Origin: Candidatus Saccharimonadota bacterium
GTDB taxonomy: Bacteria; Patescibacteriota; Saccharimonadia; Saccharimonadales; Saccharimonadaceae
Assembly: GCA_009778675.1 (NCBI GenBank)
Contig: WRFU01000003.1
Location: 1-43,559, forward strand
DNA length: 43,559 nucleotides
Direction: 5' to 3'
Part shown: positions 3,701 through 22,125 of the stretch, piece by piece
Layout of the letters: every line of letters begins with the position of its first letter
Position numbering within the stretch: position 1 is the first letter of the stretch
Notes under the pieces: generated by a model
What the model saw: the letters and a program-made list of their open reading frames with translations, nothing else
What the model was told of the DNA's origin: nothing
Databases searched by the model: none
Translations under genes and position numbers: made by a program

Positions 3701-4825
3701 ATGCGAGTTGGTAAAAAGTTTAGCAAGCCGGATCTGTCCAGGGTTATTAATGGTGATATTAGCCCAGCCGAGCTACCAGAGGTAGCTAAAGAGGCAAAAT
3801 TTCGCATAGATGCGTGGGTTGCAGACCATTATAGCGGCATAAATCGTTCACAGGCGCAAAAATTAGTGAAAGATGGTAAAGTAACCGTCAATGGTGCTAA
3901 AAACGTGCGTAGCAGCCTATTAGTGGGCTCAAACGACAAAATTGACGTCGATACCACCCCAGATCCTACTAAAACCGGCGAAATGCCGACAATTTACGAA
4001 GATGACGATGTTTTGGTATTAGATAAGCCCATCGGTGTGTTGACGCATGCTAAAGGTGCTAAATGTGATGAATTTACAGTGGCAGATTTTGTGAAACAAC
4101 GGCTGGCTAACAACCCTACCACTTGTCATCCTGAACTTGTTTCAGGATCTAACGCGACGATTCCGAAACAAGTTCGAAGTAAACCTGAACCGAAGTTGTT
4201 GGAGCATATTGCCCCCAACCTCATAGCGGGGGAATGCTCCGAACAACTTGATTCAGGTTTACATGCCATAAACAACCGCACTGGCATAGTCCACCGGTTA
4301 GATCGTGGCACTAGTGGCGTAATTATAACCGCCAAAAACGAAGCGACGCAAAAGTTCTTGCAAAAACAGTTCGCTAACCGTAGGGTCAAGAAAACCTATT
4401 ATGCGCTGGTTGAAGGCCATTTAAAACAGCCGGCGGCTTTAATCGATCTACCGATTGCTCGTAACCTAAAAAAACCGACAACTTTTATGGTGGATTCTAA
4501 TGGCCGGACGGCTCAAACTAAGTACGAAGTGTTACAAGTAGGCAAAAAGTATTCATTAATTAAGCTAACGCCAACTACTGGGCGTACTCATCAACTACGA
4601 GTGCATCTGGCCTACCTAGGCCACCCAATTGTTGGCGACAGGGTGTACAACTCCGTTTGCAAGGGTTTACCTTGCAAAACTGAATCTTTCAAGGAATGGC
4701 CTTGTAAAGGTCGGCTGTACCTGCACGCTGGTGAACTTGAAATCACACTGCCAGGCGGCAAACGTACTACTTTTACGTCGCCATTACCACCAGAGTTTAA
4801 GGAGAAGTTAGATGTACCTGAATGA
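3701..4825 (+). CDS. RluA-family pseudouridine synthase with S4 domain and in-frame palindromic insertions
   Basis: 374 residues. An S4 RNA-binding domain lies at about 30-85 (RIDAWVADHYSGINRSQAQKLV). The RluA catalytic motif HRLDRGTSG is at 198-206, with the catalytic Asp at about 201. The conserved GRTHQLRVHLAYLGHPIVGD follows. The family makes pseudouridine in rRNA or tRNA, RluD-like by domain order. Residues about 141-186, just before the catalytic motif, are encoded by two palindromic repeats inserted in frame (4124-4180 and 4181-4260) and have no counterpart in the family. The reading frame stays open, so the enzyme is probably functional. The 3' end overlaps the next gene by 14 bases. 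Confidence 0.92.
   Translation: MRVGKKFSKPDLSRVINGDISPAELPEVAKEAKFRIDAWVADHYSGINRSQAQKLVKDGKVTVNGAKNVRSSLLVGSNDKIDVDTTPDPTKTGEMPTIYEDDDVLVLDKPIGVLTHAKGAKCDEFTVADFVKQRLANNPTTCHPELVSGSNATIPKQVRSKPEPKLLEHIAPNLIAGECSEQLDSGLHAINNRTGIVHRLDRGTSGVIITAKNEATQKFLQKQFANRRVKKTYYALVEGHLKQPAALIDLPIARNLKKPTTFMVDSNGRTAQTKYEVLQVGKKYSLIKLTPTTGRTHQLRVHLAYLGHPIVGDRVYNSVCKGLPCKTESFKEWPCKGRLYLHAGELEITLPGGKRTTFTSPLPPEFKEKLDVPE
4124..4180 (+). repeat. composite REP-like element A, inside a coding region
   Basis: Two palindromic half-sites, TCCTGAAC-TTG-TTTCAGGA and a degenerate TTCCGAAACAAGTTCGAA, are separated by about 12 bases. The element is translated in frame as HPELVSGS...PKQV in the pseudouridine synthase. 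Other copies are at 10059, 18102, 25900, 30926 and 33208. Confidence 0.9.
4181..4260 (+). repeat. 80-bp palindromic element B, in frame
   Basis: An imperfect inverted repeat. The outer arms are AAACCTGAA...TTCAGGTTT, then AAGTTGTT...AACAACTT, then GGAGCAT...ATGCTCC, around a core with GCCCCCAACC and GGGGG. The core sequence and spacing match the element at 34760, but the outer arms differ in sequence while still pairing. Confidence 0.85.
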
Positions 4826-5597
4826 TCTTGAACAGTTAGCTACCATAATGGCTAATAACCAGTTTTCGCTGCTGGTGTTACCTAGGAATTATGGCACTAA
4901 TCGTGTATATAGCGCTCTGCCGCTTAAAAATACTTTTCCGGTGGCGCCGAACGACAAGGGTATAATCGGGATAGACCAAATCCGGCTGCTACAAAGTCTG
5001 TGCAAAAGCAAACAGTCAGCCAGGCAGTATTATGTGTTATTCGGCGCCGAAAACTTAACTGAAGCCGCCGAAAATGCCTTTTTAAAGCTATTGGAAGAGC
5101 CTAGTGATAATACGGCGTTTTTGCTGGTGACCGAAGATCTATCAAAATTAATACCTACGGTGCAATCTAGGGCGCAGATTTTTCATGTTAATAAGTTAAG
5201 TAAAACTGATAGTCTGCGCATGATTAACGCGCTAAACGACGATTTAGATAACAAAACCAAGCAGCAGATCATGTTTTTGGCCAGTGGTTTGCCAGATGAA
5301 ATTGAAAAATTATCAACCGATGCCGATTACCTAAAAAAGCAAGCAAAATTGGTTGAAACCGCTAAAAAGCTGGTTGCTGGCACGCCTGATGATATTCTGC
5401 TTATCGCTTATCAGTTAAAAGATAAACGCGACCAAGCCCTAAAAGTGCTAGAACTGGCAATTACCGTAACTAACAATATCGTTTCGAGCAAAAATCATAA
5501 GCTATTGGCGCGTCTGACGGATCTTGAAACGACCTACAATCAGCTACTGGCTAACGCCAATATTCGGCTTGCCATAACGGCGAATATGATACAATAG
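4812..5597 (+). CDS. holB: DNA polymerase III delta'-like clamp-loader subunit
   Basis: 261 residues. It contains the DnaX/delta' signature LTEAAENAFLKLLEEPSDNTAFLLVTEDLSKLIPTVQSRAQIF, in which SRA replaces the SRC sensor motif. No Walker A loop is visible, as expected for a non-ATPase delta' subunit. The N-terminus is short, and the C-terminal helical region is poorly conserved. It would join DnaX (24922) in the sliding-clamp loader. Its start overlaps the pseudouridine synthase gene by 14 bases, so the two are coupled. Its last codons contain the promoter of the next gene. Confidence 0.8.
   Translation: MYLNDLEQLATIMANNQFSLLVLPRNYGTNRVYSALPLKNTFPVAPNDKGIIGIDQIRLLQSLCKSKQSARQYYVLFGAENLTEAAENAFLKLLEEPSDNTAFLLVTEDLSKLIPTVQSRAQIFHVNKLSKTDSLRMINALNDDLDNKTKQQIMFLASGLPDEIEKLSTDADYLKKQAKLVETAKKLVAGTPDDILLIAYQLKDKRDQALKVLELAITVTNNIVSSKNHKLLARLTDLETTYNQLLANANIRLAITANMIQ
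5590..5595 (+). promoter_or_regulatory. extended -10 promoter, leaderless TPR gene
   Basis: TGA-TACAAT lies at the end of the delta' gene; 6 bases later is the GTG start at 5602. The spacing supports GTG as the true start. Confidence 0.6.
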
Positions 5598-20285: not shown

Positions 20286-20314
20286 TTGACAAGGATTGGA
20301 ACATAGTGTATAAA
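20286..20314 (+). promoter_or_regulatory. promoter of the radical SAM/peptide operon
   Basis: TTGACA, 17-bp spacer, TATAAA. It is followed by a ~47-nt leader and a strong GGAGG site. Confidence 0.75.
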
Positions 20315-20367
20315 CAAATGGTAATTTCTTATTTGTACATTACAATCGATCGATTTAGGAGGATATC

Positions 20368-21687
20368 ATGAAGTTTTCCCATTACAATTTAAAGGTCCGG
20401 CATGAAGGTAAGTTGATCCTATACAATACCATGTATAAGAATATCGCCGAGTTCGACCCTGAGCATGCTCGTTATTTAGAGGAGTTAACACAAAATGGGC
20501 TAATACCAAAGGATATAAAGCAGCAAGAAGTGTTAGGTTTCTTAGTTGAGCAACTATTTGTAGTAGAAGATTACGTAAATGAGTTGGCGAGTTTTCAACT
20601 TGGATATAATCGTAGTCTATTTGGCTCCGGTGTTCTACATCACACTATCCTAACTAATCTGTCGTGTAATCTGGACTGCCCGTATTGTTTTGAGGATAAA
20701 ACAGGTGATTTTATGTCTATAGAAACGGCAGATGCGTACATAGAGTGGCTAAAACCACAATTACGCAATGCGTCAAAACTCTATGTGACTTGGTATGGTG
20801 GAGAGCCTCTACTCAACAAGCGGGTAATCCATTGCATCACAAAAAAGATTTTACCACTACAGACAGAGTACGGCTTTGAGTATTCAGCTGGGATCGTAAC
20901 TAACGGTGTGTTATTGACAAAAACTTTTACTGACTTAGCAAGTCAATTGCACATCTGCGGTGTTCAGATAACGCTAGATGGTGACCATGATGACCATAAT
21001 CGGTATCGTTGTCTCCGTAAGGATCACGCTGGTACATTTGATACGATATTAGACAACCTGGCTTATTTTTGCCAAAATGTTTATTCAGATACCGCTAATA
21101 TACTAAGAGTAAATATTACAGACCAGAACTACGACGGGATTCCTGATTTATTAGGCAGGATACCGCAAGTCGTGAAAGAGAAGAGTATGTTATTACTACG
21201 GTGGATATACTCTAGCAAAAACGGTAGAACACCGAATACTGAGTTTTCAGCCGAAAAACGTGGCAAGTCACCATATACAAACTTGGCTCCATTGTATGAG
21301 CTAGCTGATTCACTTGGATTTGTTACTAATTCTATGGACGAAGGACGAACCTATAATTTTTGTGAGTGCGACTTTGATGGAGAATTTCTGATTGACCAAG
21401 ATGGTGATCTATTTATGTGCACTCACTGTATGGATAAATCAGAATCAGTGGGTAATGTCCGGGGAGGCTTTAGCACACAGAGAGATGCGTTGAGATATGC
21501 TAACTTCATAAGTCAAAATCCGTTTGATGATAGGGAATGTCTTGCTTGCAAGTTGCTGCCGCTCTGCAAAGGTGGGTGTCGTAAAGCTCGCTTCCTTGGC
21601 AAGAAAGCTTGTACGGATGCAAAAAGTGACACTAAGAGTTACGTGCTGCAAAAATACTACAAAGCCCTTGAGGGAGTTGTCGTGTAA
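20368..21687 (+). CDS. radical SAM/SPASM peptide-modifying enzyme (putative RiPP maturase)
   Basis: 439 residues. The radical SAM cluster motif C-x3-C-x2-C is at Cys100, Cys104 and Cys107 (LSCNLDCPYCFE), and TWYGGEPLL carries the SAM-binding GGE. The C-terminal SPASM region has a Cys series: FCECDFDG, FMCTHCM and ECLACKLLPLCKGGC, enough for two auxiliary Fe-S clusters. The N-terminal ~90 residues (HYNLKVRHEGKLILYNTMYKNIAEFD) resemble the leader domain of SPASM peptide maturases. AGGAGG precedes the ATG by 6 bases. The 48-residue gene just downstream is the likely substrate. Such enzymes install thioether or C-C/C-X crosslinks. No transporter or protease is adjacent. Codon use looks unlike its neighbours, so transfer is possible. 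Confidence 0.88.
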   Translation: MKFSHYNLKVRHEGKLILYNTMYKNIAEFDPEHARYLEELTQNGLIPKDIKQQEVLGFLVEQLFVVEDYVNELASFQLGYNRSLFGSGVLHHTILTNLSCNLDCPYCFEDKTGDFMSIETADAYIEWLKPQLRNASKLYVTWYGGEPLLNKRVIHCITKKILPLQTEYGFEYSAGIVTNGVLLTKTFTDLASQLHICGVQITLDGDHDDHNRYRCLRKDHAGTFDTILDNLAYFCQNVYSDTANILRVNITDQNYDGIPDLLGRIPQVVKEKSMLLLRWIYSSKNGRTPNTEFSAEKRGKSPYTNLAPLYELADSLGFVTNSMDEGRTYNFCECDFDGEFLIDQDGDLFMCTHCMDKSESVGNVRGGFSTQRDALRYANFISQNPFDDRECLACKLLPLCKGGCRKARFLGKKACTDAKSDTKSYVLQKYYKALEGVVV

Positions 21688-21730
21688 AGGCTAATAGTTA
21701 TAGCTCCAATGAAAGGAGGTGATGACGATT

Positions 21731-21877
21731 ATGAGAGCAATTCAAACTGTCACAACTAGAGACAACGTAACAGCGTATAGCGAAGAAAGAATGCCGAATG
21801 GCACTTCAATCTCAAAGGCTATACAGATGTCCGGGAAAGGTTGCTGTGGGAGCGCTTATGTAGAGCGCGCGCACTAG
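21731..21877 (+). CDS. candidate RiPP precursor peptide with C-terminal Cys-Cys core
   Basis: 48 residues, MRAIQTVTTRDNVTAYSEER at the start and GKGCCGSAYVERAH at the end. A near-perfect anti-SD match (AAAGGAGGTGAT, from 21712) precedes it. ATG at 21731 fits that site best; ATG at 21722 (three residues longer) is in frame. It begins 43 bases after the radical SAM stop and ends before a strong terminator. The hydrophilic N-terminal two thirds would be the leader, and the Gly/Cys/Ser/Tyr-rich end the core with Cys38-Cys39. I do not recognise a named precursor family. C-G-x-x-Y is faintly like the C-terminal C-G-V-Y of mycofactocin precursors, which may be chance. Confidence 0.7.
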   Translation: MRAIQTVTTRDNVTAYSEERMPNGTSISKAIQMSGKGCCGSAYVERAH

Positions 21878-21903
21878 CATCAACAGGACAATCGATACGA
21901 CAT

Positions 21904-21927
21904 AAGCCCCCGCAATAGCGGGGGCTT
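21904..21927 (+). terminator. terminator of the radical SAM/peptide operon
   Basis: A perfect 10-bp GC-rich stem AAGCCCCCGC-AATA-GCGGGGGCTT; the following tract is ACTCTTATAATTT. Confidence 0.8.
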
Positions 21928-21938
21928 ACTCTTATAAT

Positions 21939-21967
21939 TTGTATAGTTTTAATAAACACGCTATAAT
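21939..21967 (+). promoter_or_regulatory. rplJ promoter
   Basis: TTGTAT, 17-bp spacer, TATAAT. It starts a ~150-nt structured leader. Confidence 0.75.
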
Positions 21968-21972
21968 ATCAT

Positions 21973-22035
21973 CAGTTACCAAAGACAGTAGCCGTGTTTG
22001 ATTACGCTTAATCTGCTACCGAGGCAAAATTACTT
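21973..22035 (+). promoter_or_regulatory. ribosomal L10 leader
   Basis: TTACCAAAGACAGTAGCC ... AATCTGCTACCGAGGC matches the L10(L12)4-binding leader found before rplJ in many bacteria: the ACCnAAGACAGTAG and CTGCnnCCGAGG strands with their kink-turn. Binding of the L10-L12 complex feeds back on rplJL expression. Confidence 0.75.
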
Positions 22036-22044
22036 TGATTTTTG

Positions 22045-22064
22045 GTGACGATCGTCACTTTTTT
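22045..22064 (+). terminator. attenuator-like hairpin in the rplJ leader
   Basis: GTGAC-GATC-GTCAC followed by six T, 60 bases before the rplJ ATG. A further hairpin GTTTGAC...GTCAAAC (22066-22102) follows. L10-dependent attenuation is plausible, though the stem is short. Confidence 0.5.
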
Positions 22065-22125
22065 AGTTTGACGAAACTCGAAACTTAACAATTCGGTCAA
22101 ACAACATTAACCAAAGGAGAATAAC

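Follow-up and report, generated by a model that had tools for sequence, protein, structure and literature searches.

The SPASM-type ranthipeptide maturases PapB and CteB make Cys thioethers in ribosomally synthesized and post-translationally modified peptides (RiPPs), and SPASM enzymes also form C-C and C-O links. In Clo7bot loci, many Cys-rich peptides (about seven Cys, in several copies) are encoded beside the enzyme, some of them beginning with MKFIKK, and are accompanied by ABC transporters. The precursors of the TIGR04463, CefB and geopeptide maturases are Cys-rich or have a Cys at every fifth position, and these systems include extra tailoring enzymes (L083), while a CX3D/E repeat marks the PapB substrate and six Cys the SCIFF peptide. 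The by-product of radical SAM chemistry, 5'-deoxyadenosine, acts as an inhibitor of radical SAM enzymes, and MtnN or MtnP cleaves it (PMC8102628).

The 43,559-nucleotide stretch of DNA analysed here (the window), which is contig 3 of an 825 kb, 96% complete Saccharibacterial genome, encodes a SPASM-type radical SAM enzyme, a 48-aa peptide and a PNP_UDP_1-family enzyme (PNP) side by side (Table 1). The best explanation of this locus is probably a compact Saccharibacterial RiPP cassette, in which the maturase would modify the peptide and the PNP would most likely clear 5'-deoxyadenosine. On one side the three genes are flanked by rplA and a HIT-domain gene, and on the other by the L10 leader, rplJ and rplL (rplA, rplJ and rplL were recognized by eye); as the L10 leader follows immediately, the cassette is located between the rplA unit and the rplJ-rplL unit. 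An earlier reading of the sequence alone (the sequence-only reading) gave coordinates, ribosome site and hairpin that proved correct when the sequence was read again, but its statement that the unit holds nothing beyond the maturase and peptide genes was wrong, since it missed the divergent nucleoside-cleaving gene that adjoins the pair and is kept in 6/6 loci, so that the unit is a three-gene neighborhood rather than a lone pair.

Table 1. Positions of the cassette genes and associated signals in the window.
Feature	Position	Strand	Basis and remarks
PNP_UDP_1-family nucleoside phosphorylase/nucleosidase, 229 aa	19577..20266	-	Pfam PF01048, E=3e-24; divergent from maturase
Promoter-like TTGACA-17-TATAAA, 5' of maturase	20286..20314	+	TTGACA 20286-20291, 17 bases, TATAAA 20309-20314; read directly
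Shine-Dalgarno AGGAGG of maturase	20357..20362	+	Read directly
Radical SAM/SPASM peptide maturase (predicted), 439 aa	20368..21687	+	Pfam PF04055, E=1e-11; SPASM TIGR04085
Near-perfect Shine-Dalgarno AAAGGAGGTGAT of precursor	21712..21723	+	Retained in 6/6 loci
Putative precursor peptide gene, 48 aa, MRAIQTVTTRDNVTAYSEERMPNGTSISKAIQMSGKGCCGSAYVERAH	21731..21877	+	ORF and homologous peptides in relatives
Codons of core motif C38-C39-G40-S41-A42-Y43	21842..21859	+	CCG invariant in 6/6; position 43 Tyr or Phe throughout
Strong GC hairpin 3' of precursor, terminator-like	21903..21928	+	-22.7 kcal/mol, z = -5.1 vs shuffles
Ribosomal protein L10 leader	21961-22074		Rfam RF00557; immediately past cassette

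The near-perfect ribosome site that had been noted before the 48-codon ORF is present, whereas the other two expression signals were borne out in part. The promoter proposed for the maturase has both boxes in fair agreement with the consensus, and TTGACA-like boxes recur at the equivalent position 5' of the maturase in relatives, but on its own the site is not above chance, as such sites are equally common in shuffles of the window and the promoter scan omits 20286-20314. Likewise, the hairpin described as a strong terminator is strong, but its U-tract is weak and the terminator scan gives it no terminator score; GC-rich hairpin-like sequences were seen by eye 3' of the peptide gene in several relatives as well.

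The maturase gene is complete, as the sequence-only reading had it, with a SPASM match of 48.8 bits against a cut-off of 27 in addition to its radical SAM domain. The CxxxCxxC motif of the latter is formed by C100/C104/C107, and the SPASM region has Cys at 332, 351, 391, 394, 400, 404 and 415 in the pattern C332, G346xxxxC351, C391xxC394xxxxxC400xxxC404, C415, as expected of a RiPP-modifying enzyme; all radical-SAM and SPASM Cys are invariant in the maturase alignment. In the tree, the maturase family is a single fully supported clade on a long stem. The best solved relative of the maturase is the radical SAM domain protein 5wgg (E=5e-28 with a profile), which we take to be the ranthipeptide maturase CteB. 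The predicted structure of the maturase itself (pLDDT 55) is too poor to reveal a leader-binding domain. No other PF04055 protein was detected in the window genome, and the same holds for a second cassette genome (G515). Elsewhere in the family, radical SAM proteins are unusually numerous in G006 (9) and G156 (10); G156 is an assembly of 270 contigs at 76% completeness, and binning may contribute to its count.

Homologues were sought in 84,980 species genomes and in about 600 additional inspections of Saccharimonadales genomes, which yielded five other close maturases with 53-59% identity, namely L002, L003, L004 (=G161), L045 (=G515) and L048/L051 (=G349). At least three of the five other cassette genomes are Saccharibacteria, with G161, G349 and G515 belonging to the family or order of the window; the MAGs of L002 and L003 are labelled only 'bacterium', and these two are not counted among the placed Saccharibacteria. 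L045 is a named Candidatus Saccharibacteria MAG of the same order as the window, and it gives the same match as genome G515. Directly downstream of all six close maturases, at a distance of 17-52 bp (43 bp in the window), lies a homologous ORF of 48-61 aa with a Shine-Dalgarno sequence, which is the conserved short gene beside a peptide-modifying enzyme that a RiPP system should have. The sequence-only reading had staked its proposal on a similar small ORF next to related enzymes and on conservation of the GKGCCG region, and it holds on both counts, with the CCG invariant in 6/6 peptides and synonymous codon changes around it. The radical SAM/SPASM and peptide gene pair is thus real.

The six peptides can be aligned over their length and share the pattern MK.[LI]QT.T ... 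E.LP.GESI[ST]KAI.MG.K.CCG[SAG][AS][YF].E, in which a leader-like block, LP.GESISKAI.MG, is followed by the tail CCG[SAG][AS][YF]; the window peptide ends in GKGCCGSAYVERAH. M1, E19, G24, C38, C39 and G40 are the invariant residues, the last three being the only ones in the C-terminal part. A profile built from the peptides of the five relatives finds the window peptide at E=4.6e-19 among all window frames, far beyond chance, and in leave-one-out searches a profile of the other five peptides recovers the omitted one from its locus every time (E 4e-16 to 2e-24) and hits nothing else. At conserved residues of the peptide gene the codons differ synonymously, and pairwise dN (0.31-0.69) is below dS (0.65-1.66 or saturated) wherever dS can be estimated. 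The leave-one-out profiles together with this pattern of synonymous change rule out a chance ORF. Where sampled genomes lack the maturase, a search with the precursor profile gave no convincing counterpart, the one hit being a fragment with E=0.007 that contains a stop.

That the 48-aa peptide is the substrate of the maturase is very probable, judging from the size, position and conservation of its gene, yet the pair is a member of none of the named families. In agreement with the earlier claim that no named precursor family has this ending, no NCBIfam maturase or precursor model reaches its cut-off for the pair. The models that score highest with the window maturase all describe maturases of Cys-containing peptides (Clo7bot, TIGR04463, CefB, geopeptide and PapB). 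Among these, the Clo7bot maturase (TIGR04334) is best, with 198.5 bits over residues 2-418 and 213.9 bits for L002 against a cut-off of 600; the likeness is full-length, with 28% identity between the Paraclostridium enzyme and the window maturase, and one cassette peptide begins with MKAIKK. The TIGR04463, CefB and geopeptide maturases are likewise similar over the full length (184.1, 183.6 and 173.9 bits; cut-offs 525, 600 and 400), and PapB follows with 114.1 bits (cut-off 340); the SCIFF cut-off of 425 is not reached either. Membership in Clo7bot, CefB, TIGR04463, geopeptide, SCIFF or PapB was rejected on these cut-offs. The precursor differs as well, as it is encoded by one gene, has two adjacent Cys in contrast to the Cys-rich Clo7bot and CefA precursors, shows neither the CX3D/E repeat nor the six Cys of SCIFF, and comes without a dedicated transporter. 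No paper on the cassette system was found in the open-access literature, a scope outside which subscription papers and preprints mostly fall. By its sequence, the cassette would work like other radical SAM RiPP systems and is outside every named one by curated cut-offs, and the best reading is a new RiPP family of a known kind, possibly thioether-forming, plus a dedicated enzyme for clearing 5'-deoxyadenosine. Another, different radical SAM/SPASM gene from Saccharibacteria, with about 30% identity, was seen in G294 (L049/L052; L049:1501-2712); its best model is TIGR04463 (186 bits, cut-off 525), a 54-aa Cys-rich ORF (MVPQKEPF...RACACECACDESCGDDGCHDDYCECYRW) lies about 28 bp 3' of it, and it has no PNP neighbor.

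The PF01048 gene adjoins the pair in 6/6 loci and does so in two arrangements, divergent and upstream in four (the window, L002, L004 and L045) and convergent and downstream in two (L003 and L048/L051). No second PF01048 gene was found in any of the four cassette genomes that were searched whole, the window genome included. A further 26 genomes were searched for PF01048, of which the seven picked for a lone PNP relative have one gene and the remaining 19 none; the latter comprise G294 and 18 sampled Saccharimonadales that do not belong to the PNP-hit set (0/18). Any relative of the PNP gene is found in 17/295 sampled family genomes (about 6%). The protein belongs to the fold family of MTA/SAH nucleosidase (MtnN/Pfs) and MTA phosphorylase, and its predicted structure (pLDDT 75) has the S. 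solfataricus MTA phosphorylase as best Foldseek match, with which the catalytic Asp201 and the ribose-binding Glu178 align. While these residues are kept, the phosphate-binding Arg of MTA phosphorylase (IRYGTTG) is replaced by Ala in the window PNP (VAFGTCG), so that hydrolysis may be favored over phosphorolysis. None of the NCBIfam equivalog models meets its cut-off (PRK07164, 17.7 of 161 bits for the window; PRK05584, 23.8 of 169 bits for L002); predicted fold and catalytic residues would be compatible with cleavage of 5'-deoxyadenosine, MTA or SAH.

Clearance of 5'-deoxyadenosine by the PNP is put at close to an even chance on this basis. The main competitor, which we regard as a serious possibility though somewhat short of even, is that the PNP serves in purine or MTA/SAH salvage, is unrelated to the pair in function and lies beside it through shared insertion history. 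At least five sampled genomes have an orthologue but not the pair, and the tree intersperses these lone copies with the cassette-linked ones, which indicates that the PNP gene is resident in Saccharibacteria and that the pair is repeatedly associated with it. The salvage reading also draws on the lack of a significant association between PNP and radical SAM genes in general (14/17 sampled family genomes with PNP vs 178/278), for which reason a role as general partner of radical SAM enzymes was rejected; one PNP-bearing genome (G123) has no radical SAM gene detected. Against an unrelated gene stand the adjacency in 6/6 loci in both arrangements, the rarity of any such gene in the sampled family and the absence of PF01048 from the other sampled relatives. 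At the G123 locus (L071), the lone PNP gene, at 4764-5504, is possibly within another biosynthetic cluster, its neighbors by eye being an S66/MccF-type peptidase, a phosphopantetheinyl transferase and a carbamoyltransferase.

For the RiPP cassette with by-product clearance, the following course of events can be proposed. The N-terminal two thirds of the peptide (M-K-x-[LI]-Q-T ... E-x-LP-x-GESISKAI) would serve as leader or recognition sequence, which the maturase would recognize first, and the modified region would be the C-terminal CCG-[SAG]-[AS]-[YF]. The radical-SAM cluster would split SAM, and the resulting 5'-deoxyadenosyl radical would abstract a hydrogen next to C38/C39 or the aromatic residue at 43, whereupon one or two oxidative cross-links would be formed with the help of the auxiliary clusters. 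The likeliest cross-link would be a thioether from Cys to a neighboring residue, as with the most similar Cys-peptide maturases. The adjacent PNP_UDP_1 enzyme would then most likely cleave the inhibitory by-product, for which these reduced genomes appear to have no other enzyme of that family.

By analogy with those maturases, thioether chemistry on the peptide is about as probable as its absence, and the invariant C38-C39 is only compatible with the ranthipeptide/sactipeptide (thioether) class; the two Cys, compared with the many of the named Cys-rich relatives, count against this explanation. Somewhat doubtful, yet deserving weight, is a RiPP cassette without thioether: the maturase would instead place a cyclophane- or ether-type cross-link on Tyr/Phe43 or change some other residue, and the two Cys would be engaged in metal binding or a disulphide. 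The aromatic residue at position 43 in all six peptides fits such a product, C-C and C-O links being within the known range of SPASM enzymes, and matches to the cyclophane maturases YhhB and DynA exist. These are weaker, however, as the Cys-peptide maturase models are far ahead of the cyclophane ones (198 and 184 vs 61-69 bits), and the invariant residues of the C-terminal part are the two Cys and G40 rather than the aromatic residue.

It is highly improbable that the small ORF encodes a small subunit with a regulatory or accessory role in the enzyme instead of its substrate: conservation does extend over the whole length, N-terminal part included, and no cleavage site is recognizable in all members, with a GG before the core in some peptides only, but the C-terminal CCG core, the variable tail, the size and the position fit RiPP precursors, and the nearest maturase families all modify such peptides. 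More improbable still is an adenosylation route, in which the maturase would add 5'-deoxyadenosyl to the peptide and the PNP-family enzyme would remove adenine. In its favor are the nucleoside-cleaving type of neighbor at every cassette locus (6/6) and a precedent in the futalosine pathway, where a radical SAM enzyme is paired with a nucleosidase (MqnE adenosylates a small-molecule substrate and MTAN/MqnB acts on aminofutalosine), but SPASM peptide maturases are not known for adenosylation, the match to the futalosine hydrolase model amounts to a mere 15.8 bits (cut-off 124.7), and simple by-product clearance accounts for the same facts.

Neither a protease nor an exporter could be linked to the cassette across loci, and leader export by a C39 peptidase was rejected, with no match over the cut-off in the four cassette genomes. 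MacB/FtsX-type ABC transporter genes are near the cassette in L002 and L004 only, where an ABC ATPase and a MacB/FtsX permease (L002:2297-4348 and L004:3130-5015) are possible exporters. A mobile or viral origin was likewise rejected, as two scans of IMG/VR turned up no precursor and, for radical SAM proteins, matches that were weak and partial only, and plasmid matches are at most 31% identical among the matches listed.

Saccharibacteria have very small genomes and are without most biosynthesis, so that a lone radical SAM enzyme kept for peptide modification implies that the product repays the expense. This product may be used in contact with a host cell or neighbor, and a secreted role toward the bacterium's host or neighbors is put forward tentatively. 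The most far-reaching version would be a natural-product system of three genes confined to epibiotic bacteria with reduced genomes. In it, the PNP would be functional in the pathway, either removing the 5'-deoxyadenosine left by the one radical SAM enzyme of the cell or processing a peptide that has been adenosylated, and the Cys-Cys-Gly product would serve host-epibiont interaction; this version is unlikely to hold in full. With precursor and enzyme outside the curated families, the pair offers a compact two-gene system for discovering new peptide chemistry and, if the PNP is confirmed to cleave 5'-deoxyadenosine, the locus would show how a reduced genome sustains radical SAM turnover.
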